Shown here: positions 5,406 through 22,869 of the stretch, piece by piece | Position numbering within the stretch: position 1 is the first letter of the stretch | How the letters are laid out: every line of letters starts with the position of its first letter | From: Nanohaloarchaea archaeon PL-Br10_U2g5 | Lineage (GTDB): Archaea; Halobacteriota; Halobacteria; Halobacteriales; Haloferacaceae | Direction of reading: 5' to 3' | Assembly: GCA_001564205.1 (NCBI GenBank) | Contig: LKMY01000005.1 | Coordinates: 1-23,530, forward strand | Length of the DNA: 23,530 bases | Made by a program: the position numbers and the translations under genes | The notes under the pieces: generated by a model | What the model saw: the letters and a program-made list of their open reading frames with translations, nothing else | Told to the model about the DNA's origin: nothing | The model's database searches: none

Positions 5406-5434
5406 ATGTGTGAAGATATATGCACTACACACAT
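5406..5434. promoter_or_regulatory. Long inverted repeat covering the metY start, putative operator
   Basis: ATGTGTG at 5406-5412 is exactly mirrored by CACACAT at 5428-5434. The match continues inward as AG against CT after one unmatched base, so 9 of 10 positions per arm agree. The repeat begins directly after the TATA box, spans the predicted transcription start and overlaps the ATG. A repressor bound there would block polymerase. The binding protein is unknown; control by methionine or sulfur status is an inference. Confidence 0.5.
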
Positions 5435-6725
5435 GACACGTGGGTTCAACACCCGGAGTCTCCACGCCGGCGCGGAGCCCGACCCGGTGACCGGGTCACG
5501 CGCGACCCCGATCCACCAGACGACGTCGTTCGTCTTCGACGACGCGGACACGGCGGCGGAGCTGTACGCGCTCCGGGCGGAGGGCCACATCTACTCCCGG
5601 CTCTCGAACCCGACCGTGAGCGTCCTCGAAGACCGAATTGCCGACCTCTCCGGCGGCTCTGACGCCGTCGCGACCGGCTCGGGGATGGCCGCGTTCGACG
5701 CGATCACGACCGTGCTCGCGAGCGCGGGCGACAACATCGTCGCCAGCTCCGAGATGTACGGCGGGACGGCCGCCTACCTCACCAGCATCGCGAACCGACG
5801 CGGGGTCGAGGCGCGGCTCGTCGACACGCTCGATTACGAGGCTTATGAGACGGTCATCGACGAGGACACCGCGTTCGTCCACGTGGAGACGGTCGCGAAC
5901 CCCTCGCTGGTCACGCCCGACTTCGAGCGGCTCGCCGAGATCGCCCACGATCGCGCGGTCCCGCTCGTCGTCGACAACACCTTCGCGACCCCGTACCTTT
6001 GTCGGCCGTTTGAGCACGGTGCCGATATCGTCTGGGAGTCGACAACGAAGTGGATCACAGGCAACGGGACGACCGTCGGCGGCGTCGTCGTCGACGGCGG
6101 CCAGTTCCCGTGGGACCACCCGGATGCCGATTACGACGAGCTCGACGGCAAATCGCCCGGCTTCCCGATCGACTTCGTCGAGCGGTTCGGCGACGCCGCC
6201 TTCGCCAACGTCGCCCGCCAGCGCGGCGTGCGCCCGACCGGCGGCCAGCAGTCGCCGTTCGACGCGTGGCAGACGATTCAGGGGCTCAACACCCTTCCGC
6301 TGCGGATGGAACGGCACTGCGAGAACGCCCGGGCGGTCGCCGAGTACCTCCGCGACGACGACCGCGTCGGCTGGGTGACGTACCCCGGCTTCGAAGATCA
6401 CCCGAGCCACGAGAACGCGGGGACGTATCTGAAGGATTACGGCGGGATGGTCACTTTCGGCGTCGACGGCGGCTTCGAGGCCGCGAAAACGCTGTGTGAG
6501 TCCGTCGATCTGACGAGCTTCCTCGCGAACATCGGCGACGCGAAGACCCTCGTCATCCATCCCGCCTCCACGACACACGCGCAGATGGATCCCGAACAGC
6601 AGCGGCTCGCCGGCGTCTTCCCGGATATGCTCCGGCTCTCGGTCGGCATCGAAGACGTCTCGGACGTGATCGCCGACCTCGACGAGGGGTTGGCCGCGGG
6701 CGAGCGCGCCGCCTCGGAGGCCTGA
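5433..6725 (+). CDS. metY: O-acetylhomoserine sulfhydrylase
   Basis: This 430-residue PLP enzyme belongs to the Cys/Met metabolism family. It converts O-acetylhomoserine plus sulfide into homocysteine and acetate. The PLP lysine is K206 in [11 protein letters not shown], preceded by the cofactor-contacting D181 (VVDNTF). [12 protein letters not shown] (55-66) and GSGMAAFDA (82-90) are family signatures, and the C-terminal [14 protein letters not shown] completes the fold. Length matches typical MetY. I chose ATG at 5433 because the TATA box at 5398-5405 would place transcription start near 5427 and because the family N-terminus begins at [10 protein letters not shown]. The frame also contains an ATG nine codons upstream at 5406. 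The next gene, metX, starts 5 bp after the stop and supplies the substrate, so the two form an operon. Cystathionine-forming relatives are less likely given that partner. Confidence 0.94.
6716..6720 (+). promoter_or_regulatory. Shine-Dalgarno of metX inside the metY end
   Basis: GGAGG lies within the last codons of metY, 10 bases before the metX ATG at 6731. It suggests that the second cistron uses ribosome re-entry or coupling. Confidence 0.5.
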
Positions 6726-6730
6726 TCGAT

Positions 6731-8014
6731 ATGAGCACAACGCCATCCGACGACGGTGTCGTCGCGCTCGGCGAGTTCGAGTTCGAGTGCGGCCAGTCCG
6801 TCCCGAACCTGGAGATCGCCTACGAGACCCACGGCGAGTTCGACGGCGACAACGTCGTGTTGGTCTGTCACGCGCTCACCGGGAGTCAGAACGTCGCGCG
6901 GTCGCCGTCGCCCGAGCGAGACGCTGGACAGGCCGGCCAGGCCCGCGCGTGGTGGGACGACATCGTTGGCCCCGGGAAGGCGATCGACACGACGGAGTAC
7001 TACGTCGTCTGTGCGAACGTTCCGGGCTCCTGTTACGGCACCACGGGGCCGACGAGCGAGCGTCCGGCGGACCTCGACCTCCCGGACGAACCCGACCACG
7101 ACCGGTGGGGGACGCTCTTCCCGCCGGTACAGGTCGAAGACTGGACGCGCGCACAACGGCGCCTGCTCGATCACCTCGGCGTGGGGCGGCTTCGGGCGGT
7201 CGTCGGCGGGAGCGTCGGTGGGATGAACGTCTTAGAGTGGGCGAAGCGGTACCCCGACGACGTCGATCGGATCGCCGCCATCGCCACCGCCGGCCGCCTC
7301 GACGCGCAGTGTCTCGCGCTCGACGCGGTCGCTCGTCGAGCGATCCGCGCAGACTCGAGCTGGAACGGAGGCGACTACTACGGCGAGGACCGCCCGTCAC
7401 CGGACGAGGGGCTCGCGCTGGCCAGACAGATCGGTCACATCATGTATCTCTCGAAGGCGTCGATGGAGCGCAAGTTCGGCCGGCGCTCGGCCGGCCGCGA
7501 CTCGCTGACCCGCGAAGAGGGCGACCTCGGGTTACCGCCGGAGCCGACCGCGGCGTTCTTCCCGTACCGCGAGGTGGAGTCGTACCTCGATTATCAGGCG
7601 GAGGGGTTCAGCGAGCGGTTCGACGCCAACAGCTACCTCTACCTCACGCGCGCGATGGACGAGTACGACCTCTCGGCGGGTCACGGGACGGACGCCGACG
7701 CGATCGCGGCCTTCGAGGGAGAGGCGCTGTTGTTAAGCTTCACGGCCGACTGGCATTTCACCGTCGAGCAGTCGTCGTCGCTGGCGACCGCCTTCCGTAC
7801 TCGCGAGGTGCCGGTCGCCCACCACGTGATCGACTCCGACCACGGCCACGACGCGTTCCTCGTGGAGCCCGAACACGTGGGTCCGCCGCTCCGTGACTTC
7901 CTCGCCGATGGGATCGCTGGTCGGGCAGTCTCCGATGACGGCAGTGACGAGACGAAGTCCGCACGGCCCGAGTCAGAGCACGCTCCCGTCCACGCGAGCC
8001 TATTTAAGGGATAG
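6731..8014 (+). CDS. metX: Homoserine O-acetyltransferase
   Basis: This 427-residue alpha/beta-hydrolase transfers an acetyl group from acetyl-CoA to homoserine, the step before MetY. The nucleophile is S161 in [12 protein letters not shown]. The acid is probably D340 (SFTADWHF), and the base is H373 in DHGHDAFL. Other family blocks are CHALTGS (46-52), [14 protein letters not shown] (74-87) and GSCYGTTGP (99-107). Active-site sequence and size fit the MetX acetyltransferase group, although some members accept succinyl-CoA and that cannot be excluded. The last 35 or so residues after the family core are acidic and look like a halophilic tail. The gap to metY is 5 bp, with an SD-like GGAGG inside the metY end. 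It converges with the small protein at 8060 across 45 bp. Confidence 0.95.
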
Positions 8015-13340: not shown

Positions 13341-14288
13341 TTAGTTATCGATCTTCGGATCGATCGCGTCTTGCAGGCCGTCCCCGAAGAGGTTGAATCC
13401 CATCACAGTCACGAGGATAGCGAGCCCGGGCCAGATGCTGAACCACGGCTGCGGGAGCATGTACCCCCGTGACTCCGAGAGCATCTGGCCCCAGTCGGGG
13501 GTCGGCGGCTGCGCGCCGTACCCGAGAAACGAGAGCCCAGCGATGATGAGGATGCTGATCCCGATCTGGAGCGTCCCCTGTACCAGCACCGGTGCAAAGC
13601 TGTTAGGAATCACGTGTCTGAGGATGATTTGACTGTCCCGGACCCCGGCAGCCCGTGCGGCCTCAACGTAATCCGTCTCACGGACACTCAACACTCGCGA
13701 TCGAATCAGGCGGGCGAACACCGGGATCACGGCGATCCCGACGCCGACCATCGCGTAGGTGATGCTCCGTCCGAAGGCAGCCATAAACGCGATGACCAAC
13801 ACCAGAAACGGGATCGAGTAGATAGTCTCGACGAACCGCATGAAGACGTCATCGACCCAGCCGCCGTAGTAGCCGGCGACAGAGCCGATTGCGGTCCCGC
13901 CGACCATCCCGATAGCCGTCGAGAGGAACCCGACGGTGATCGAGATTCGCGTCCCGTAGATCACCCGCACGAGAATGTCGCGCCCCCGGTGGTCGGTCCC
14001 GAGCGGGTGTGCCCACGTCCCGCCGTCGATGAACGCCGGCGGGAGAATCGTCTCGACTACTTCCGGGTCTCGCTCCGGGTGGTACCACACCGCTTCCGCG
14101 ATCGCATAATCGAAGACGAGGTAGTCGATCCATGTGAACGTCGCCACCAGGGTCAACAGACCGATGAGGTAGAGTCCGAACCGAGCGGTCGGGTCGCGTT
14201 TGATGACGGTGACAGTGTGTCGCCAGCCGACCTGCTCGACCGCCGGATCCTCGGAGGACGTTCCGTTCTCGTGTTCACCGATGGCCAT
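13341..14288 (-). CDS. dppC: Oligopeptide ABC permease, DppC/OppC type
   Basis: This 315-residue inner-membrane permease has an N-terminal transmembrane helix (about 40-62), a long external loop with GTDHRGRDILVRVIYGTR, and then a five-helix core. The cytoplasmic EAA loop YVEAARAAGVRDSQIILRHV contacts the ATPase. It ends with SFLGYGAQPPTPDWGQML and GFNLFGDGLQDAIDP, both DppC signatures. The start is ATG at 14288, three codons inside a GTG at 14297, because a Shine-Dalgarno GGAGGTG sits 6 bases before it. The gene lies 37 bp downstream of the DppB-type permease, and together with the binding protein forms an operon on the minus strand. No ATPase genes follow: the next gene is the CDF transporter. 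The solute may be peptides, nickel or a sugar, since the family is broad. Confidence 0.93.
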   Translation of the reverse strand: MAIGEHENGTSSEDPAVEQVGWRHTVTVIKRDPTARFGLYLIGLLTLVATFTWIDYLVFDYAIAEAVWYHPERDPEVVETILPPAFIDGGTWAHPLGTDHRGRDILVRVIYGTRISITVGFLSTAIGMVGGTAIGSVAGYYGGWVDDVFMRFVETIYSIPFLVLVIAFMAAFGRSITYAMVGVGIAVIPVFARLIRSRVLSVRETDYVEAARAAGVRDSQIILRHVIPNSFAPVLVQGTLQIGISILIIAGLSFLGYGAQPPTPDWGQMLSESRGYMLPQPWFSIWPGLAILVTVMGFNLFGDGLQDAIDPKIDN

Positions 14289-14294
14289 TAACGA

Positions 14295-14301
14295 CACCTC
14301 C
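14295..14301 (-). promoter_or_regulatory. Shine-Dalgarno of dppC
   Basis: GGAGGTG on the minus strand, six bases ahead of the ATG at 14288, decides this start over the upstream GTG at 14297. Confidence 0.75.
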
Positions 14302-14325
14302 GTCCCGCGTGAGTTCGTGTTTCAG

Positions 14326-15324
14326 TCATTCGCGATCACCGTACGAGATCCGCGGATCGATGTACGCGTACGAGATATCCGTGACGATGACTCCGACGAG
14401 AAATATGAGTCCGAAAAAGAGCGTCGTGCCCATGATGAGCGGATAGTCAAGCGTCTGGATCCCGGTGATTATCAGCCGCCCCATGCCGTTGATGTTGAAT
14501 ACGGTCTCGATGAGTACGGAGCCGCCCAGCGCCGTCGAAACGTTCAGTCCGACGATCGTGATCACGGGAAGCTGTGCCGGCCGAAACGCGTGCCTCCTGA
14601 GAATCGTTTGCTCGGAAACGCCGTATCCTCGCGCGAGTTTCACGTAGTCCGTCTGTAAGGTCTCAATCATCGAGGAGCGCTCGATCCGGGTCGCGGCCGC
14701 CATCTGTAGTGTCCCGAGGGCGATGGTCGGAAGTACCAAGCTCCTGGCAGAGAGATACCACACCTCGATCCACGTCTCCGCGCCGGACACCGCCGCTGGT
14801 CCGCGCCACGGGCGGACCAGATCCGACGACGGGAACCAGCCGAGGTGAAACGAGAAGACGATGATCAGGAGGAGACCGATCCAGAACGAGGGCGTCGACA
14901 CGCCAAACAGCGCGACGACGCGCGAGAGGTGGTCGATCCAGTCGTTTCGGCGCGCGGCCGACAGGACCCCAAGGGGGATCGCCAGTCCGAGTCCGAAGGT
15001 GTATGCGGACCCGACGAGCAGCATCGTTACCGGCAGGCGCTCGATGATCTTGTCTATCACGGGCGCACCGTAATGAATACTCAGCCCGAAATCGCCCTGT
15101 GCGGCATTAATCAGGTAAATGACGTACCGCTCGTGAACGGGCCGGTCGAGACCGTACCGCTCTCTGAGCGCTGCCTCGAGGGCCTCGTCGACGTCGGCGC
15201 CGATCATGATGTCGACGGGATCTCCCGGCATCGCGTTCGTTAAAAAGAACGTTATCGTGGCGATACCGATCAGTACCGGCACCGTCTGCAGTATTCGCCA
15301 GAGTGTGTATTTGAGAAGCGTCAC
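14326..15324 (-). CDS. dppB: Oligopeptide ABC permease, DppB/OppB type
   Basis: This 332-residue inner-membrane permease starts with the DppB-specific helix (about 9-30, TVPVLIGIATITFFLTNAMP), followed by GDPVDIMIG and RYGLDRPVHERYVIYL. Five further helices follow, with the EAA-like loop YVKLARGYGVSEQTILRRHA. It ends FNINGMGRLIITGIQTLDYP and DISYAYIDPRI, both family hallmarks. The start is GTG at 15324. GAGG overlapping the preceding stop is 13 bases away, so translation probably depends on coupling with the binding-protein gene, whose stop lies 15 bp upstream. It pairs with the DppC-type permease to form the channel. No ATP-hydrolysing partner is encoded in the window. Confidence 0.93.
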   Translation of the reverse strand: MTLLKYTLWRILQTVPVLIGIATITFFLTNAMPGDPVDIMIGADVDEALEAALRERYGLDRPVHERYVIYLINAAQGDFGLSIHYGAPVIDKIIERLPVTMLLVGSAYTFGLGLAIPLGVLSAARRNDWIDHLSRVVALFGVSTPSFWIGLLLIIVFSFHLGWFPSSDLVRPWRGPAAVSGAETWIEVWYLSARSLVLPTIALGTLQMAAATRIERSSMIETLQTDYVKLARGYGVSEQTILRRHAFRPAQLPVITIVGLNVSTALGGSVLIETVFNINGMGRLIITGIQTLDYPLIMGTTLFFGLIFLVGVIVTDISYAYIDPRISYGDRE

Positions 15325-15339
15325 AGGAGAGAGACGGCC

Positions 15340-16977
15340 TCAGTTGTCGATCGAGACGTTATTTGTCGGTCCGACCATCCGCGGGTTGAGTCGCTGACGT
15401 GGGTGCGCGACGAAATCGTGCACGTGGTGACCGACTCCAAGGGTCGTCTTGGGACTGTACGCGGGCAGGTGTACCCGATCCTCGAGGATCTGTGTCGCAA
15501 CGTCGATGTAGAGCTCGCGCCGCTCCTCGAAATCGGCCGATTGACGCGCCGTCGTGATCTTCTCCATCACGTCATCGTTCTCGTAGAAGACACCGTTCGG
15601 GGCGTTCCCGGCGTTGCTCTCGTGGAACAGTGGCGTAAAGTAGACATCCGGATCCGGCGGATTGAGGTAGCCGAGGAGGTAGATGTTGTAGTCGTCGTCA
15701 TCGCCGGTGTCGATATTATCGAGGAACGCACCCCACTCGAGTCGCTGAACCTGTGTGTCGTAGCCGATGTCTTGGAGGCCGTTTCCGATGCTCACAGCGA
15801 TCTGTTCGCGGATATCGTCTGGGGGAGAGAGGATCGTGAACTCGTAATCGTCGGGAACGCCAGCCTCGTCCATCAGTTCGGCTGCACGGTCTTGATCCCG
15901 GTCGTGCGGGATCTCCCGCCACTCCTCGATTGGCATGTCCCACTCCTCGACGACTGGGAGCGGAAGCGGGGCATGGTTCCGGGTTCCCGCCGGCTCCACG
16001 AAGTTTGACACCGCCTGATCCATCGAAAACGCGTAATCGACCGCCTCGCGAACGAGCGGATCCGCTGTCGGGCCTTGGTTGCAGTTGAACGCCGCAAAAA
16101 AGTAGTTGATGCCGGGCTCTTCCATGAGATCGGCATTCTCCATTCCCTCGACGGTGTCCCATATTTGCGGGGGAATTCCGTCGATTACGTCGCTTTCACC
16201 CGTCTGTAGCCTCGTTGCACGCGTCGTGTCCTCTTCGACCGGTACCATCCGAAGCGTCTCAACGTTCGGGAGCGGGTCGTCCCAGTAGTCTTCGAATCGC
16301 GTGAGTTCGGCATACTCGCCCTGTTGCCAGTCGGTGAGTTCGTACGGACCCGATCCGATCGGCGGTTCGGTGTTGTACGCCTCTCGATCGGCCGTCCGTG
16401 CTTCCTTCGAGACGATATTATTAGTCAATACCTCGATTTGGAAGGGGACGAATCCGAACTCGAGATCGATCTGCACCGTGTGGTCATCGATGAGGTCGAT
16501 CGAGTCGATGGTTTCGAGTGCGTCATCGCCGAGTTCTGCTTCCTCGACCGGCGCCGTGTACGTGTGTTCGACGTCCTCCGCTGTGAGCGGCTCCCCATCG
16601 TGGAAGCGCACGTCGTCGCGCAGCTCGATAATGTACCGCTGACCGTCTCGCTCGATCGTCGGCTCGTCGACAGCGACCTTCGGCACGATTTCGGTTCCCT
16701 CTCCGAACTCGTAGAGGGGATCAAACACGCGGTTGATAATCTGATACGAGTAGATATCCCCGACAACGAGGGGATCGAGCTGTATCGGGTCGACCTGCTG
16801 GCTGTAGATCAGTCGACTCCCATCGGAGCCGCTCGTGTCGTCTGCACCATCAGCGTCCTCAGCGAGGTCATCAAGCTCATCGTCGCCGCCCAAACATCCA
16901 GCCAATCCGATACCAGCGGTGCCGACCCCGACGGACCGCAAGACGTTGCGTCGGGTCGACAGATTTCGGTGTGCCAT
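15340..16977 (-). CDS. dppA: Oligopeptide/dipeptide-binding lipoprotein, Tat-exported
   Basis: This 545-residue family 5 extracellular solute-binding protein captures substrate outside the cell. A twin-arginine signal is present at R9-R10 (TRRNVLR), and a lipobox LAGC puts the lipid-anchored cysteine at C28. An acidic linker follows (about 32-50), then the large two-lobe domain, recognisable by the segments QVDPIQLDPLVVGDIYSYQI, VRFHDGEPLTAEDV and VREAVDYAFSMDQAV. The start is ATG at 16977. The TATA box at 17001-17008 places transcription start at about 16978, and an alternative GTG at 16992 would fall before it. It leads the operon with the two permeases. The family binds peptides, nickel and some glycans, and specificity cannot be read here. 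Its distance to sufSU is 233 bp, and the two are not co-transcribed by position. Confidence 0.94.
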   Translation of the reverse strand: MAHRNLSTRRNVLRSVGVGTAGIGLAGCLGGDDELDDLAEDADGADDTSGSDGSRLIYSQQVDPIQLDPLVVGDIYSYQIINRVFDPLYEFGEGTEIVPKVAVDEPTIERDGQRYIIELRDDVRFHDGEPLTAEDVEHTYTAPVEEAELGDDALETIDSIDLIDDHTVQIDLEFGFVPFQIEVLTNNIVSKEARTADREAYNTEPPIGSGPYELTDWQQGEYAELTRFEDYWDDPLPNVETLRMVPVEEDTTRATRLQTGESDVIDGIPPQIWDTVEGMENADLMEEPGINYFFAAFNCNQGPTADPLVREAVDYAFSMDQAVSNFVEPAGTRNHAPLPLPVVEEWDMPIEEWREIPHDRDQDRAAELMDEAGVPDDYEFTILSPPDDIREQIAVSIGNGLQDIGYDTQVQRLEWGAFLDNIDTGDDDDYNIYLLGYLNPPDPDVYFTPLFHESNAGNAPNGVFYENDDVMEKITTARQSADFEERRELYIDVATQILEDRVHLPAYSPKTTLGVGHHVHDFVAHPRQRLNPRMVGPTNNVSIDN

Positions 16978-17000
16978 ACGGCAATGAACCACTCTGTTGG

Positions 17001-17008
17001 AATATATG
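17001..17008 (-). promoter_or_regulatory. TATA box of the dppABC-like operon
   Basis: GCATATATT on the minus strand is centred about 27 bp before the ATG at 16977. It predicts a leaderless operon transcript and favours ATG 16977 over the upstream GTG. Confidence 0.65.
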
Positions 17009-17210
17009 CCGGTTTACAGGCAAGTGTCAGTCACTCCCCGCCATAGAGTACAAGAACGTCCGGTAGCAATAGATGTATAAACTATTATTTTAGTCTTTGT
17101 CGAGGATCGCCCCGCAGAATTTGAAGAATATCACAGCGGAGCCGCTGCCCTTCGACGCCGCTTCCCCGACGTGGTCAGTACCGCTCTGTTCGCACCGGGT
17201 CGACGGGGCC

Positions 17211-18800
17211 TCACCGATTCTCGAGGTATTCCGTCGCGGCTTCCCGGATCACCGCTTCGGGACCGATCACGCAATCGCGGCGCAGTTCCGGGAACTGGCC
17301 GCCGAGCAGCTCTTCGATGGTCCCGTCGATATCAGCGGCCGCCGTCACTGACATACCGGTAAGGTGGTTCGCAAGAATGTTCGCGACCGCTTGGCTGACC
17401 GCACAGCTCCGGCTCTCGAATCCGACGTCGACGATGGTTCCGTCCTCGATGCGGAGCTGAAACTCTCCTTCGTCGCCGCAGGTCGTCTCCTCCGAATGCT
17501 TTCGAATGGTCGGATTTTGGATCGCGTTTTTCGCGTCTCCCTCACGGTAGTGGTCGTATATCGCGTCGTCGTATCGATCAGATGCAAGGTACGGCTCGAG
17601 CGCCTCGGGAGCCTCCTTGAGTGCAGCAATCACTTCGTCGATCTCGCGTTTGGAGTTGTATATGTAAAACGAGATCCGAACGGACCCCGGAATATCGAGA
17701 ACGTCGTGGAGCGGCTGCGTGCAGTGATCTCCCGCCCGAACCGCGATGCCCCGGTCGTTTAGCAGCGAAGAGATATCGTGTCCGTGTATCCCGTCGACAT
17801 TGAACGAAACGAGCCCGGAGCGGGGCTCCCCGATTCCGGGACCGTACGTTTCGATCCGATCAAGCTCATCGAGGCGTTCTAACGCGTACTGGGCGAGCTC
17901 GTTCTCGTGTTCTCGAACCCGGTCCATTCCGATCGCATCGAGATAATCGGCTGCGGCGGCGAGTGCGATCGCTTCGGCGATCGGTGGGGTTCCCGCCTCG
18001 AACTTCCACGGAAGCTCGTTCCAAGACGACTCGTCGAAGGTGACGTGACGAATCATTTCGCCGCCGAACAAGGACGGTTCGAGTTCGTCCAGCAGGTGTT
18101 CTTTGCCGTACAAGCCCCCAATTCCCGTCGGTCCGGCCATTTTGTGACCGGAGAACGCGAAGAAGTCCACATCCATTGCCGTTACATCGACCGGGCGATT
18201 CGGGACTGATTGTGCCCCGTCAACCAGTATTTTTGCGTCGTTGTCGTGAGCGATCTCAGCGAGCTCACCAACGGGGTTGACCGTCCCCAACACGTTCGAG
18301 ACGTGTACTACAGAGACGAGTGCTGTATCGGTTGTTATCGCTTCGTTGGCGTGGTCCATATCGAGGCTGCCGTCGTCGGTCACCCGTATGTATCGGATGT
18401 CGGCTCCCGTCCGTTCGGCGAGCTGCTGCCACGTTACGAGTGACGCGTGATGCTCCATTTCGGTCGTGACGATCTCGTCATCAGGACCCAGCTCGTCTCT
18501 CAGACCGTTCGCGACCAGATTGATGCTCTCGGTCGTATTCTTTGTGAACACCATCTCCGCTCGGCCACCGGTCGCGCCAACGAACTCAGCGAGACGGTCA
18601 TGGGCGTCTTCATACGCGACTGACGCCTCGTGGCTCAGTTCGTGAATTCCCCGATGAACGTTCGCGTTATATCGCTCGTAGAACTCCTTATAGACGCGAT
18701 ACACCTCCGTCGGCGTCTGTGTCGTCGCCGCGTTATCGAAGTATATCAGCGGGTGCCCGTTGACCGTTCGATCCAAAATTGGAAAATCATCTCGAAACAT
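17211..18800 (-). CDS. sufS: Cysteine desulfurase fused to a SufU-like scaffold/acceptor domain
   Basis: This 529-residue single chain has two domains. Residues 1 to about 400 are a group II cysteine desulfurase (SufS), which takes sulfur from cysteine as an enzyme persulfide. The PLP lysine is K220 (SGHKMAGPTGIG), the cofactor-stacking histidine is near H117-H118 and the persulfide cysteine is C360 (RAGDHCTQPL). Residues about 415-529 resemble SufU/IscU: DHYREG at 416-421, C441-G-D443, C466 (SCAVSQA) and C510 (RRDC). All three SufU cysteines and the aspartate are kept. These proteins accept persulfide sulfur or carry a zinc or Fe-S site. No internal ATG suits a separate second gene, so the fusion looks real. 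The start is ATG at 18800, with a strong TATA box 25-30 bp upstream; the longer open frame to 19823 is antisense to the neighbouring deacylase. GC at third positions is lower than in metY. Confidence 0.93.
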   Translation of the reverse strand: MFRDDFPILDRTVNGHPLIYFDNAATTQTPTEVYRVYKEFYERYNANVHRGIHELSHEASVAYEDAHDRLAEFVGATGGRAEMVFTKNTTESINLVANGLRDELGPDDEIVTTEMEHHASLVTWQQLAERTGADIRYIRVTDDGSLDMDHANEAITTDTALVSVVHVSNVLGTVNPVGELAEIAHDNDAKILVDGAQSVPNRPVDVTAMDVDFFAFSGHKMAGPTGIGGLYGKEHLLDELEPSLFGGEMIRHVTFDESSWNELPWKFEAGTPPIAEAIALAAAADYLDAIGMDRVREHENELAQYALERLDELDRIETYGPGIGEPRSGLVSFNVDGIHGHDISSLLNDRGIAVRAGDHCTQPLHDVLDIPGSVRISFYIYNSKREIDEVIAALKEAPEALEPYLASDRYDDAIYDHYREGDAKNAIQNPTIRKHSEETTCGDEGEFQLRIEDGTIVDVGFESRSCAVSQAVANILANHLTGMSVTAAADIDGTIEELLGGQFPELRRDCVIGPEAVIREAATEYLENR

Positions 18801-18827: not shown

Positions 18828-18838
18828 GTATATAAAAT
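18828..18838 (-). promoter_or_regulatory. TATA box of the SufS-SufU fusion
   Basis: The AT-rich stretch ATTTTATATAC on the minus strand, centred about 32 bp before the ATG at 18800, is the strongest TATA element in the window. It faces the deacylase promoter across about 50 bp. No TTAGG/CCTAA iron-type box is seen here. Confidence 0.6.
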
Positions 18839-18883
18839 AGTGGCGCGTTAGACGAGCAGAAAGCGGCGTCTCCCGTGCACGCA

Positions 18884-18914: not shown

Positions 18915-19928
18915 ATGCACGACGCACGCGAACTCACGCTGGCACGCCTTCCGTCGGGAGTCCCGATCCGCACGACTGTCCACGTCTACGGCGACGGAGC
19001 GCTCGTCGACGGCGACGACGGACCGACCCTCGACATCCCCGACGACGGCGGTCCCGTCGTCTACGCGCAAGCAGCCCAACACGGTCGAGAGGTGAACGGC
19101 GCGGCGGTTCTCCGGCGACTCCACGAGCGACTGACCGATGGTGGGGAGAACCCACTCGCTGGCACCCTCGTGACGGTCCCCGTCGCCGACCCGCTCACGT
19201 TCGATCGCGTCTCGTACACGACGCCAGAGGCGCTCGACTCGGTTCACTCGAACATGAACCGGTGTTGGCCGGGTGACCCGGACGGGACGCTTCACGAGCG
19301 GATGGCCGCGAGACTCTGGTCGTTCGCGAGCGCGGCCGACGCTGTCGTCGACCTCCACACCGGGTCGCCGTCGATGCTCACCCACACCGTCTACATGCGC
19401 GGCGATCCGGAGTGTCGAGCGCTCGCCGAGGCGTTCGGAACGGACTTGCTGCTTGCCGAGTCCGCCGGCGACGACGCGGACACGGAGTGGTCCGAGCGCG
19501 GCTTCGCCGGGAAGTTCCGCGTCGCGGCGACCCGTGAGGGGATCCCGACGATCACGCCGGAGCTCGCACACAGCCGGGAGATCGTCGAGACGGCGGTCGA
19601 AATCGGGGTCGACGGGATGCTCGGCGTCCTCCGGGATAAGGGACTTCTTCCGAGGGATCCCGCCCCGTGGGACGGGACCGTCGTACGGAACCACCTCGGC
19701 CGGGTGACCGCGGCCGATTCGGGGCTGTTCCGGCCGGAGCCCGACCTCGAGATCGGCGACGAGGTGAGCGACGGCGACCGGCTCGGCGAGGTGTACGATC
19801 CGACGACGTTCGAGACGCTCCAAGTCGCCGCAGCCGACCGCGACGGGGTCGTCTACTCGGTCGCTCGCGAATCGACGGTCACGGCGGGGTCGACGCTCGT
19901 GGGGGTCGCGGAGCGTCTCGAGGGCTAG
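18915..19928 (+). CDS. AstE/AspA-family zinc deacylase
   Basis: This 337-residue protein belongs to the succinylglutamate desuccinylase/aspartoacylase branch of zinc carboxypeptidase-like hydrolases. The zinc ligands H56-x2-E59 (QHGREVNG) and H148 (DLHTG) are in place. E216 (TPELAH) is positioned as the general base, and the substrate-binding NMNR lies near residues 113-116. The C-terminal 80 or so residues form a small beta domain (ADSGLFRPEPDLEIGDEVSD), as in AstE relatives. Family members remove acyl groups from N-acylated amino acids. The acyl group and amino acid here are unknown, and a role in degradation of an acetylated compatible solute is one possibility. The start is ATG at 18915 with a TATA box 28 bp upstream. 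It diverges from the SufS-SufU fusion and ends 124 bp before the iron-binding protein gene. Confidence 0.9.
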   Translation: MHDARELTLARLPSGVPIRTTVHVYGDGALVDGDDGPTLDIPDDGGPVVYAQAAQHGREVNGAAVLRRLHERLTDGGENPLAGTLVTVPVADPLTFDRVSYTTPEALDSVHSNMNRCWPGDPDGTLHERMAARLWSFASAADAVVDLHTGSPSMLTHTVYMRGDPECRALAEAFGTDLLLAESAGDDADTEWSERGFAGKFRVAATREGIPTITPELAHSREIVETAVEIGVDGMLGVLRDKGLLPRDPAPWDGTVVRNHLGRVTAADSGLFRPEPDLEIGDEVSDGDRLGEVYDPTTFETLQVAAADRDGVVYSVARESTVTAGSTLVGVAERLEG

Positions 19929-20052: not shown

Positions 20053-21198
20053 ATGAGAGACAACAGCCGTCGTCCGCTCGCCTCGTTCACGAATCGCCGG
20101 TCGTTTCTCGGTGCAGTTGGCGCGTCCGGAACCATTGCGCTCGCCGGATGCGCGGGATTTGGCGGCGGGGGCGGCGAGGATCCGTTCGACGATTACGGCC
20201 CACAGGAGGCCGCCGTGGAGCCGTCTGCGGTCTCGTGGGACGATCTCGGAGAGCTGACCGGTGAACTCACGATCTACTCGGGGCGCACTCGCGACCAGAT
20301 CGACCCGCTGTTCGACGCGATCGAAGACCGATACGACGACTTCACCATCGATAGCGACTTCGACGATAACTCGACGCAGCTCAACAAGATCAACGAAGAG
20401 ACGGCGGACACTCGCCCCGACATCTTTTATACGCAGTCGTCCGGCGCTCTCGCCGCGCTCAAACAGGACGACCTCGTCCGGACGCTTCCGGAGGATATCA
20501 TCGATGCCGTCGACGACAACTACAGCGATCCCGACGGAACGTGGACCGGTGCTTCGGGCCGCGTTCGGGCAATCCAGTACAACACAGAGCTGTGGGAGGG
20601 AACTGCAGACGACCTTCCGGACGACATCTTCGCGTACGCGGACGACGAGCGCTTTGAGGGGATCATCTCGACGCGTCCGAACTCCGGGACGTTCCGGTCG
20701 TTCATCGTCGCGATGATCGAGATGGAAGGAGAACAAGCCACCCGAGAGTGGATCCGCGGGATGGTTGAAAACCAGGACGTGACGCTGTACTCCAGTGGTT
20801 CTCAGCAGGCGGAAGAAGTGAACGCCGGCAACCAGACCGTCGGACTCGGGAATCAGTACTACGCGGGCCGGATACTGGAGAACGACCCCGACGCACCGAT
20901 CGACGTGGCGTTCACGGAGAACGATCCGGGCTGTCTGTTCAACGTCTCCGGAGTCGGGATCCTCGCCGACGCCGACAAGCCGAATCTCGCCGCGGAGTTC
21001 ACTCGACACGTCCTCGCCGCGGAGGGACAGGCGTTCTTCGTCGAGACGAACGGCGAGTACCCGGTGCTCGACGGCGTCGACTACGTCGGCGACCTTCCGA
21101 CTCTCTCGGAGATCAACCCGCCCGAGTTCGACCTCAACACGCTCGCGAACGTCGAGCAGGCGGTGGATCTGCTCCGCGACGAGGGAATGACGGTGTAA
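20053..21198 (+). CDS. fbpA: Fe(III)-binding lipoprotein, FbpA/IdiA-like, Tat-exported
   Basis: This 381-residue solute-binding protein is of the bacterial ferric-ion transferrin-like class. A twin-arginine signal NRRSFLG has R15-R16, and a lipobox LAGC places the anchored cysteine at C33. A glycine-rich and acidic linker is followed by a binding domain starting near LTIYSGRTRDQIDPLF. The tandem tyrosines Y269-Y270 (GNQYYAGR) match the Fe(III)-coordinating pair of FbpA. Transport would bring in ferric iron delivered at the outer face of the membrane. Two DtxR/IdeR-like boxes flank and follow the TATA box, and the predicted start of transcription coincides with the ATG, so expression is probably repressed under iron sufficiency. 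The permease gene follows after 87 bp. A thiosulfate- or other anion-binding relative is less likely given the tyrosine pair and the operators. Confidence 0.92.
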   Translation: MRDNSRRPLASFTNRRSFLGAVGASGTIALAGCAGFGGGGGEDPFDDYGPQEAAVEPSAVSWDDLGELTGELTIYSGRTRDQIDPLFDAIEDRYDDFTIDSDFDDNSTQLNKINEETADTRPDIFYTQSSGALAALKQDDLVRTLPEDIIDAVDDNYSDPDGTWTGASGRVRAIQYNTELWEGTADDLPDDIFAYADDERFEGIISTRPNSGTFRSFIVAMIEMEGEQATREWIRGMVENQDVTLYSSGSQQAEEVNAGNQTVGLGNQYYAGRILENDPDAPIDVAFTENDPGCLFNVSGVGILADADKPNLAAEFTRHVLAAEGQAFFVETNGEYPVLDGVDYVGDLPTLSEINPPEFDLNTLANVEQAVDLLRDEGMTV

Positions 21199-21248
21199 CG
21201 ATTTCGGTCACCCCCCGGATGTCGGACCACGACAGCGTTTTCAGAAGC

Positions 21249-21257
21249 CGTATATCA
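21249..21257 (+). promoter_or_regulatory. Possible TATA box of fbpB
   Basis: CGTATATCA is centred about 33 bp before the GTG at 21286. It could supplement read-through from fbpA. Confidence 0.35.
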
Positions 21258-21285
21258 CCCGAGACGAACCATCACGCACGAAGCC

Positions 21286-22869
21286 GTGTTTGAGACACTT
21301 CGCGGCACACCCACAGACGGCGACGATGGACGGTCGTCGCTCGGCCTCCTCCTGTTGAGCGGCGTCATCGCCGCGATCGTTACGTCCCCGCTGCTGTGGC
21401 TCTTTTTACGCGCCTCCGAGGTCGCCTCGCCCGAACGAGCGATCTCGCTGCTGTTCTCGGCACGAACCGCAGAGATACTTATCAACAGCATCGGGCTGAT
21501 GGCGGCAGTCACGATACTTTCGGTCGCGCTCGGGGTCCCGCTTGCCGTCGTCACGACCGGCACGGATCTCCCGTACGACCGGTTCTGGACGGTCGTCGCC
21601 GCACTCCCGCTCGTTATTCCGAGCTACATCGGCGCGTTCGCATTCGTCCGGACGTTCGGAAGCGGCGGTGAGGTGAGCGCCGCGCTCGGCGTTCCGCTTC
21701 CCGCGGTGGAGGGGTTCTGGGGGGCCGTCGTCGTTATCACGCTGTACACGTACCCGTACGTGTTTCTCTCGACGCGGGCCGCGCTCCTCTCGCTTGATAT
21801 GGAGCTCGTCGAGGCCGCCCGAAGCCTCAACGTCACGCGTATCGCCGCGTATCGACGAGTCGTCTTCCCGCAGATCCGTCCCGCTATCGCTGCGGGCGCA
21901 CTGCTCGTCGCGCTGTACGCCGTCTCCGACTTCGGAACGCCAGCGTTCATGCGCGTGAGCGTGTTCACCTACGAAATATACGTCGAGTCAGGCTCGTTCA
22001 ACGTCGAATACGCGGCGCTCCTCTCGATGCAGTTGCTCGCGGTCACCGCCGTCATCCTCCTGATCGAGGCGCGGGTCGGCCGTGACACGGGGTCGTCTGG
22101 CGGCGGACGAACCGCGCGGCTTCGACTCGGCCGCTGGAAGTGGGTCGCAATGGCAGCGATCGGATCCATCGGCGTCGTCACACTGGTCGTTCCAGTCGCG
22201 ATTTTCGGTGTCTGGGCGCTCCGCGGTCCCGAAGGGGGCGTCCCCTCGCTCGCGTTTGAGTGGAGCTTCGCACTGAACTCCGTCTTCCTCGCGACGATGG
22301 CCGCCGCGGTCGCCTGCCTCCTCGCGATTCCGGTCGCGTACCACTCCGCGAGATCCGACTCGCGACTCTCGCGGCTGTTCGAACGCGCGACGTACGTCGG
22401 ATTCGCGGTCCCCGGCGTCGTCATCGGACTCGCGTTGGTGTTTTTCGGATCGAACTACGCGCCGTGGGCGTACCGCACGGTCCCGCTTCTGGTGTTCGCG
22501 TACTTGGTCCGATTCCTCCCACAGGTCGTCGGGACCACGCGCTCTGCGGTGTTACAGGTCGACGACCGGCTCGTCGAGGCCGCCCGCACGCTGAACGCTG
22601 GCCGGACGGAGACGTTTCGGAAAGTAACGCTACCGCTGATCCTTCCGGGTATTGTCGCCGGGGGTGTCCTCGTCTTTCTCACGACGATGAAGGAGCTTCC
22701 GGCGACGCTCATGCTCCAGCCCAGCGGAGTCGACACGCTCGTGACGATCGTGTGGGCTGCTCACGAAACGCTGTACTACCAGTACGCCGCGGTGCCGGCG
22801 CTCATTCTCGTCGTGGTCTCCGCGCTCTCGATGGTGGTGTTGCTCAGACAGGAGTCCGGATTGGGGTGA
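21286..22869 (+). CDS. fbpB: Fe(III) ABC permease, double-length
   Basis: This 527-residue inner-membrane permease contains two binding-protein-dependent transport domains in one chain, as is usual for FbpB/AfuB-type iron permeases. About 12 transmembrane segments are visible. The EAA loops that contact the ATPase are E176 in EAARSLNVTRIAAYRRVVFP and E431 in EAARTLNAGRTETFRKVTLP. A basic linker with SGGGRTARLRLGRWKW lies between the halves, near residues 267-285. The start is GTG at 21286; no upstream Shine-Dalgarno is evident and a weak TATA-like element is 33 bp away. It follows the iron-binding lipoprotein by 87 bp, so both may share the iron-regulated promoter. The gene for the FbpC ATPase is missing: the next gene is a Tfx regulator on the opposite strand, 23 bp beyond the stop. 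Confidence 0.92.
   Translation: MFETLRGTPTDGDDGRSSLGLLLLSGVIAAIVTSPLLWLFLRASEVASPERAISLLFSARTAEILINSIGLMAAVTILSVALGVPLAVVTTGTDLPYDRFWTVVAALPLVIPSYIGAFAFVRTFGSGGEVSAALGVPLPAVEGFWGAVVVITLYTYPYVFLSTRAALLSLDMELVEAARSLNVTRIAAYRRVVFPQIRPAIAAGALLVALYAVSDFGTPAFMRVSVFTYEIYVESGSFNVEYAALLSMQLLAVTAVILLIEARVGRDTGSSGGGRTARLRLGRWKWVAMAAIGSIGVVTLVVPVAIFGVWALRGPEGGVPSLAFEWSFALNSVFLATMAAAVACLLAIPVAYHSARSDSRLSRLFERATYVGFAVPGVVIGLALVFFGSNYAPWAYRTVPLLVFAYLVRFLPQVVGTTRSAVLQVDDRLVEAARTLNAGRTETFRKVTLPLILPGIVAGGVLVFLTTMKELPATLMLQPSGVDTLVTIVWAAHETLYYQYAAVPALILVVVSALSMVVLLRQESGLG

Follow-up and report, generated by a model that had tools for sequence, protein, structure and literature searches.

Does the minus-strand gene at 17211..18800 of the 23,530-nucleotide stretch of DNA analysed here (the window) encode a genuine fusion of a cysteine desulfurase with a sulfur acceptor, and if so, what kind of acceptor is it, how did the two parts come together, and what would the protein do? 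The preliminary description of this locus had claimed that a SufS and a SufU/IscU-like domain are joined in one polypeptide.

Two domains in one reading frame

The reading frame runs without internal stop from an ATG at 18800 to the stop codon at 17211-17213 (529 codons plus stop). Pfam Aminotran_5 matches residues 19-389 of the 529-residue product (E 1e-146) and Pfam NifU_N matches residues 410-527 (E 6.5e-13; 49.4 bits for a cut-off of 22), which bears out the claim of a single two-domain chain. The protein consists of a SufS-type (group II) cysteine desulfurase domain (residues 1-400; 17601..18800, minus strand, as for all features below), a short linker (residues 401-409; 17574..17600) and a domain of the SufU/IscU fold (residues 410-529; 17214..17573), the last defined by the NifU_N match together with a structural match. 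The linker is the gap between the end of the NCBIfam TIGR01979 match at residue 400 and the beginning of the NifU_N match at residue 410, and the segment from residue 396 up to 410 spans 13-14 residues in 78/78 aligned copies. A structure comparison recovered both the SufS fold and the IscU/SufU fold. Some 30 bases before the start codon, an AT-rich, TATA-like stretch (18830..18839) is a candidate promoter of the gene's own, as read from the sequence. The lower third-position GC content (GC3) that had been remarked upon is real, the fusion having the lowest value of the 18 window ORFs measured (0.689). It is nevertheless regional, since the two adjoining peptide-transporter genes are also poor in GC3 (0.728 and 0.781). 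Together the three genes make up a low-GC3 tract (0.69-0.78; 14326-18800), the other 15 ORFs ranging from 0.80 to 0.89.

The same domain order was sought in other genomes, as had been proposed, and it proved widespread in Halobacteria. Among the best 120 of 8000 scored candidates, 104 homologues (P0001-P0103 and P0106) harbour both domains according to precomputed Pfam matches. A stricter motif script classed 96 of these 120 as fusions, and each of the eight discrepant proteins fails one regular expression, that for the RAG[HD]HC motif in seven cases and that for the SufU motif in P0093. We aligned 78 of the fusions P0001-P0103 after 25 near-duplicates had been removed by hand, and rescanning them with Pfam identified both domains in 78/78. 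Similarly, a search with residues 405-529, using length limits that admit fusions, yielded 30 matches, all with both domains. The fusions with named organisms among the matches listed all belong to the class Halobacteria and represent 15 genera (Halorussus, Natrononativus, Halosimplex, Halomontanus, Halogeometricum, Halovenus, Halolamina, Natronosalvus, Halobaculum, Halostella, Halobacterium, Halorubrum, Salarchaeum, Halorientalis and Halorarius). Several copies sit on contigs of 2.6-4.0 Mb and four on megaplasmids; thus, the gene is not only plasmid-borne. Most named entries among the matches listed are titled ‘SufS family cysteine desulfurase’ or ‘cysteine desulfurase’, and as these titles mention the desulfurase alone, the acceptor domain is easily overlooked.

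A frameshift, a missed stop or a chimeric assembly could mimic such a gene, and broken copies do exist. In Halosimplex halobium (P0105/P0145, on contigs of equal length), a frame change close to where the SufU part begins seems to divide the fusion in two, and a Halobaculum marinum plasmid carries a second fusion region with a broken frame (L040:4451-6756). However, the presence of both domains in one chain in 104 of the best 120 homologues, from many assemblies, and in all 78 rescanned copies rules out a stop, a frameshift or a sequencing error at the junction, and we give an artefact a negligible probability. Several accessions flanking the second H. marinum region are the same as those flanking the intact Halobaculum locus L019, and this copy may be a genuine duplication or arise from the assembly. 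The tail of the copy bears the annotation ‘iron-sulfur cluster assembly scaffold protein’, which illustrates one origin of such pieces. We also looked for close stand-alone haloarchaeal SufU proteins with a domain-only search (48 matches), but the candidates P0123-P0147 look like C-terminal pieces of fusion genes: P0128, P0129, P0133, P0139, P0140 and P0143 are exact substrings of fusions (first residue ignored), P0136 and P0142 carry a PF00266 piece, and the others were classed by similarity and by starts within the end of the SufS part.

A SufS-type desulfurase and an aberrant acceptor domain

The first half scores 544.6 bits against the NCBIfam sufS model TIGR01979, above the cut-off of 475.1. 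Eleven residues are invariant in the 78 aligned fusions, namely K220, H341, R355, G357, C360, C441, G442, D443, C466, R507 and C510. They include every residue that the preliminary description had singled out: the pyridoxal phosphate (PLP)-binding lysine K220 in an SGHK motif (18141..18143), the persulfide-forming cysteine C360 (17721..17723), C441 (17478..17480) and D443 (17472..17474) of the CGD motif, C466 (17403..17405) and C510, the third cysteine (17271..17273). C441, which the CGD motif aligns with C40 of Mycobacterium tuberculosis SufU, is the expected sulfur acceptor; D443, C466 and C510 are expected metal ligands. H341 (17778..17780), 19 residues before the catalytic cysteine, is the equivalent of H354 of M. 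tuberculosis SufS. A His at this position, as required for a zinc ligand swap, marks a desulfurase with a SufU-type rather than a SufE-type partner, and it is found in 78/78 fusions. The corresponding H-x-H-D motif was visible by eye in 14/14 haloarchaeal stand-alone SufS proteins. Going by these features, the N-terminal part is a SufS-type cysteine desulfurase of predicted activity. With catalytic and metal-site residues kept in a real fusion, the earlier notion of a sulfur donor tethered to its acceptor is the natural reading.

The identity of the second domain is less simple. Its NifU_N match, three cysteines and CGD motif agree with the SufU-like assignment made previously, but it falls short of the SufU model TIGR01994 (cut-off 92.5), with 58.9 bits for the whole chain and 63.1 for the domain alone. 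Other copies score lower still (49.1 bits for the fragment P0123 and 43.0 for P0097). Two SufU hallmarks are also missing. The excerpt of PMC10216065 gives a 21-23-residue insertion and a Lys as SufU features. That insertion, between the second and third Cys, is absent from the 78 aligned fusions, in which the C466-C510 spacing is 44 (77/78) or 43 (one copy), and Lys before the third Cys occurs in 0/78. Position 509 (D509 in the window; 17274..17276), occupied by His in IscU and Lys in SufU, is Asp in 54 fusions, Glu in 23 and Gly in one, so that the IscU His is not present in the aligned fusions either. The stand-alone SufUs compared fall into a long (60-64) and a short (45-47) spacing class, nearly all with the Lys; the exceptions are Arg in P0157, Thr in L023 and Pro in the haloarchaeal L038 and L039 (the motif script gave no reading for L002, L004 and the fusion P0103). 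Because the SufU insertion, the SufU Lys and the IscU His are all missing, we would label the domain neither a canonical SufU nor a canonical IscU; it belongs to the NifU_N family and probably functions in the manner of SufU. Given the sub-threshold score and the two missing hallmarks, its chemistry may differ.

These same features could instead denote a true IscU-like Fe-S scaffold, in which sulfur would be passed to a domain binding iron or a [2Fe-2S] cluster and D/E509 would stand in for the IscU His ligand. The absence of the insertion, the 44-residue spacing in 77/78 copies and the presence, again in 77/78, of Asp or Glu in place of the IscU His fit such a scaffold, as does the structural ranking, in which IscU chains come out best (7c8m_A, TMq 0.80) and the first Bacillus subtilis SufU appears at rank 13 (6jzv, TMq 0.71-0.75). 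Nevertheless, the desulfurase half is SufS-type with the zinc-swap His, and the window domain prefers the SufU profile (63.1 bits) over NifU_clost (41.5) and IscU (32.2; TIGR01999 cut-off 192.4), an order slightly reversed in the related fragment P0123 (NifU_clost 51.4, SufU 49.1). Moreover, since a spacing close to this is also seen in short stand-alone SufUs that keep the usual Lys, the missing insertion does not by itself imply a scaffold. We therefore consider a scaffold unlikely and retain the SufU-like reading.

Origin, divergence and genomic neighbourhoods

Separate trees of the two domains, another check that had been suggested, each recovered a single fusion clade. The SufS tree comprised 73 rows, i.e. 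29 of the 78 fusions, 14 haloarchaeal stand-alone SufS proteins (those among the best 120 matches listed) and 30 others, the truncated L014 being left out. The fusions form one clade in it (support 99/93) and the stand-alone haloarchaeal SufS proteins another (94/80), and the two group together at 100/100. In the SufU tree (62 rows, 29 of them fusions), the fusion clade (100/100) sits on a stem of 1.87; L038 and L039 are nearest (91/89), and the deeper forks are weak. As the fusions make up a single clade in the rows sampled, sister to stand-alone haloarchaeal SufS, we think it reasonably probable that the fusion arose once in Halobacteria, as part of the whole proposal. The L038 and L039 proteins, of ~129 residues, are stand-alone and SufU-like, with that of L038 above the SufU cut-off, and belong to a haloarchaeal cluster common to two genera (L038:1351-10075 and L039:1359-10095). 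It also encodes two GTP-binding proteins, a molybdenum-cofactor-domain protein, a cobalt-factor methyltransferase and a metal ABC transporter, with a CopG regulator on the opposite strand, and its role is possibly in zinc homeostasis.

The genetic organization in bacteria suggests how the genes may have merged. In the phylum of locus L003 (Anaerolineaceae, presumably Chloroflexota), 40 of 77 matches run over both domains (to at least residue 488) with one stop (35) or two (5) in between, 35 end at residues 391-401 without a stop, and two end at residues 406 and 421 with a stop. At the same-frame loci compared (L032, from the phylum of L006, and L034-L037), sufU begins ~0-12 bases past the sufS stop, the script taking the first codon where no ATG was seen. 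In 12 of 14 further bacterial loci that have the pair, sufS and sufU lie within ~64 bases of each other in different frames. Same-frame neighbours separated by one or two stops make stop loss a simple route to fusion. Plausibly, neighbouring sufS and sufU genes merged when the stop codon that separated them was lost, and the acceptor domain would then have diverged strongly. No fusion was found among 400 genomes of the phylum of L003 (77 matches past 1e-130) or 398 genomes of that of L006 (three matches past 1e-138), cut-offs strict enough to hide divergent fusions. Among the matches listed for 199 relatives of a Methanomassiliicoccales genome (176 with a match at 1e-30), none was a stop-free two-domain match, and the one in G007 reaches residue 466 with two stops inside. 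A scan of viral contigs for the fusion gave no match. Phage records contained no clear fusion, and at the sole place covering at least 80% of the query, the annotation gives sufS and iscU as two distinct genes.

The two halves have not evolved at the same pace. Mean pairwise identity is 0.577 for the SufU domain and 0.725 for the SufS domain (3003 pairs, with the reverse order in 13). Both domains have dN/dS values under 1 in 10/10 pairwise comparisons of five genes (SufS 0.10-0.28, SufU 0.19-0.65), although these ratios are rough because synonymous sites are partly saturated. Thus, both domains are under purifying selection, and the SufU half evolves faster. Fast divergence and the long stem would suit a regulatory or structural relic that has lost sulfur acceptance, but the invariance of the three Cys and D443 in 78/78 copies and the dN/dS values below 1 argue against loss of function, and we regard a relic as very unlikely.

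In the window, the fusion lies between a peptide-type ABC transporter (13341-16992) and an AstE/AspA-like deacylase (18915-19928), with another ABC transporter beyond (20053-22869). The peptide-transporter binding protein is nearest to the glutathione-binding GsiB, far under the cut-off (144 of 594 bits). Some 9 kb away, a metY-like O-acetylhomoserine sulfhydrylase and a metX-like acyltransferase are encoded side by side (5406-8014). The earlier observation that sufB, sufC and sufD are absent nearby was correct: no SufB/D or ABC-ATPase (SufC) domain was detected in 18 window ORFs, fusion included, with Pfam, nor in a 19th with NCBIfam. SufB/D was likewise not found in the plasmid sequences of four fusion-bearing haloarchaeal megaplasmids, whereas the same scan detected it in the control genome of Haloferax volcanii, and none of the four plasmids carries a second SufS above the cut-off. 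However, the absence of sufBCD nearby indicates that the fusion is not in a suf operon, and nothing further; the suggestion that it might bypass other SUF partners is unsupported.

Neighbours differ between genera in the five loci compared, and none is a SUF or Fe-S gene. On two Halobaculum plasmids, the fusion faces a divergent gene for a type 1 glutamine amidotransferase (GATase) with a Peptidase_C26 match (L019:9295-9939 and L020:9301-9939), and an ABC transporter comes after the fusion. Two Natrialbaceae plasmids have genes for an oxidoreductase, a peptidase and an amidohydrolase closest to it. An amidotransferase matching Peptidase_C26 is also encoded by the fourth gene downstream of the Halomontanus fusion (L018:14608-15330). 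Peptidase_C26 covers gamma-glutamyl hydrolases, and gamma-glutamylcysteine is the main haloarchaeal thiol. The five neighbourhoods are compatible with an accessory role, and the enzyme might serve cysteine breakdown or sulfur scavenging, e.g. from peptides or gamma-glutamylcysteine, rather than Fe-S cluster formation. The transport and hydrolase genes, including the GsiB-nearest transporter and the deacylase of the window and the divergent Peptidase_C26 protein on two Halobaculum megaplasmids, point in this direction, together with the four fusions on megaplasmids without SufB/D. Yet the neighbours vary by genus and several copies sit on contigs of 2.6-4.0 Mb; a plain degradative enzyme would need no conserved sulfur-acceptor domain. 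A scavenging function thus appears doubtful to us.

Proposed sulfur transfer and known systems

Our best reading overall, based on sequence features and fairly probable in our judgement, is that the fusion is a self-contained, self-activating sulfur-transfer enzyme of Halobacteria. Sulfur hand-off is probably built into one protein in many of these salt-loving archaea. The SufS domain, with PLP on K220, would remove sulfur from L-cysteine, releasing alanine and forming a persulfide on C360. A metal, probably zinc, would be held in the tethered SufU-like domain by C441, D443, C466 and C510, and this domain would dock at a SufS active site, either that of its own chain or that of the partner protomer in a dimer. 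H341 may then take over one zinc position and free C441 to accept the persulfide, and C441 would pass the sulfur on; its most likely recipient is SufBCD, encoded at another place in the genome. According to the excerpt of PMC10216065, His354 of M. tuberculosis SufS replaces a SufU cysteine as zinc ligand, freeing this cysteine for the persulfide, and the same zinc coordination is reported for B. subtilis. As the fusion keeps the zinc-swap His and the full SufU ligand set, the same chemistry, intrachain or across the dimer, is our best guess. The sub-threshold SufU score, the faster evolution of the SufU half and the five loci without Fe-S neighbours speak against the proposal. A bolder version, which we put forward tentatively and with low confidence, is that a single fusion event gave rise to an acceptor of a third type, alongside SufU and IscU, with a new Cys-Asp-Cys-Asp/Glu-Cys metal site, such that one self-activating dimer would both mobilise sulfur and assemble or carry an Fe-S or zinc-persulfide intermediate.

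A desulfurase-SufU fusion as such is already known, since a SufS-U protein has been reported in the oxymonad Monocercomonoides, a mitochondrion-lacking protist (excerpt of PMC6006210), and the name SufDSU is used in later Preaxostyla work (excerpt of PMC10703272). Among the papers listed in searches of openly licensed PMC literature, none reported an archaeal SufS-SufU fusion, its single origin or its altered acceptor site. Like Monocercomonoides SufS-U, the haloarchaeal protein unites SufS and SufU-like domains in one chain, with the above caveats about the latter. We take Preaxostyla SufDSU to be the same protein as SufS-U; it differs in being eukaryotic and, going by the name SufDSU, in including SufD, the comparison being one of descriptions rather than sequences.

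The COG1104 group, the source of CD-rhodanese, is presumably different from the SufS group. CD-rhodanese of Pseudorhodoferax, found through COG1104, is likewise a natural desulfurase-acceptor fusion, with a rhodanese instead of SufU as acceptor; at 7600 nmol/min/mg, it is the most active of the characterised desulfurases tabulated in the excerpt of PMC8931425. We count this high activity in favour of a self-contained sulfur-transfer enzyme. Another archaeal SufS fusion, CysH-SufS of Methanomicrobiales, has a PAPS reductase as partner (excerpt of PMC11237513). The IscU proteins, including archaeal ones (7c8m; Archaeoglobus fulgidus 4eb5), share the fold of the C-terminal domain; in contrast with them, the fusion lacks the His before the third Cys, and its partner domain is SufS rather than IscS. 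A Haloferax SufS was reportedly the subject of a 2010 paper by Zafrilla et al.

In the SufS-SufU pairs of B. subtilis (5xt5) and M. tuberculosis (8odq), the folds, the catalytic Lys and Cys, the zinc-swap His and the Cys/Asp set are the same as in the fusion. It differs from them in being one polypeptide with a ~9-residue linker, in lacking the 21-23-residue insertion and in having Asp or Glu instead of Lys before the third Cys. Where the two-protein system needs a SufS-SufU complex for the hand-off, one chain is present here, a natural example of the fusion of genes that are neighbours elsewhere. One purified halophilic protein would allow tests of whether transfer occurs in cis or in trans, whether zinc is required and how tethering affects rate and oxygen resistance, and the variant metal site could help separate the roles of the conserved SufU Lys and IscU His.
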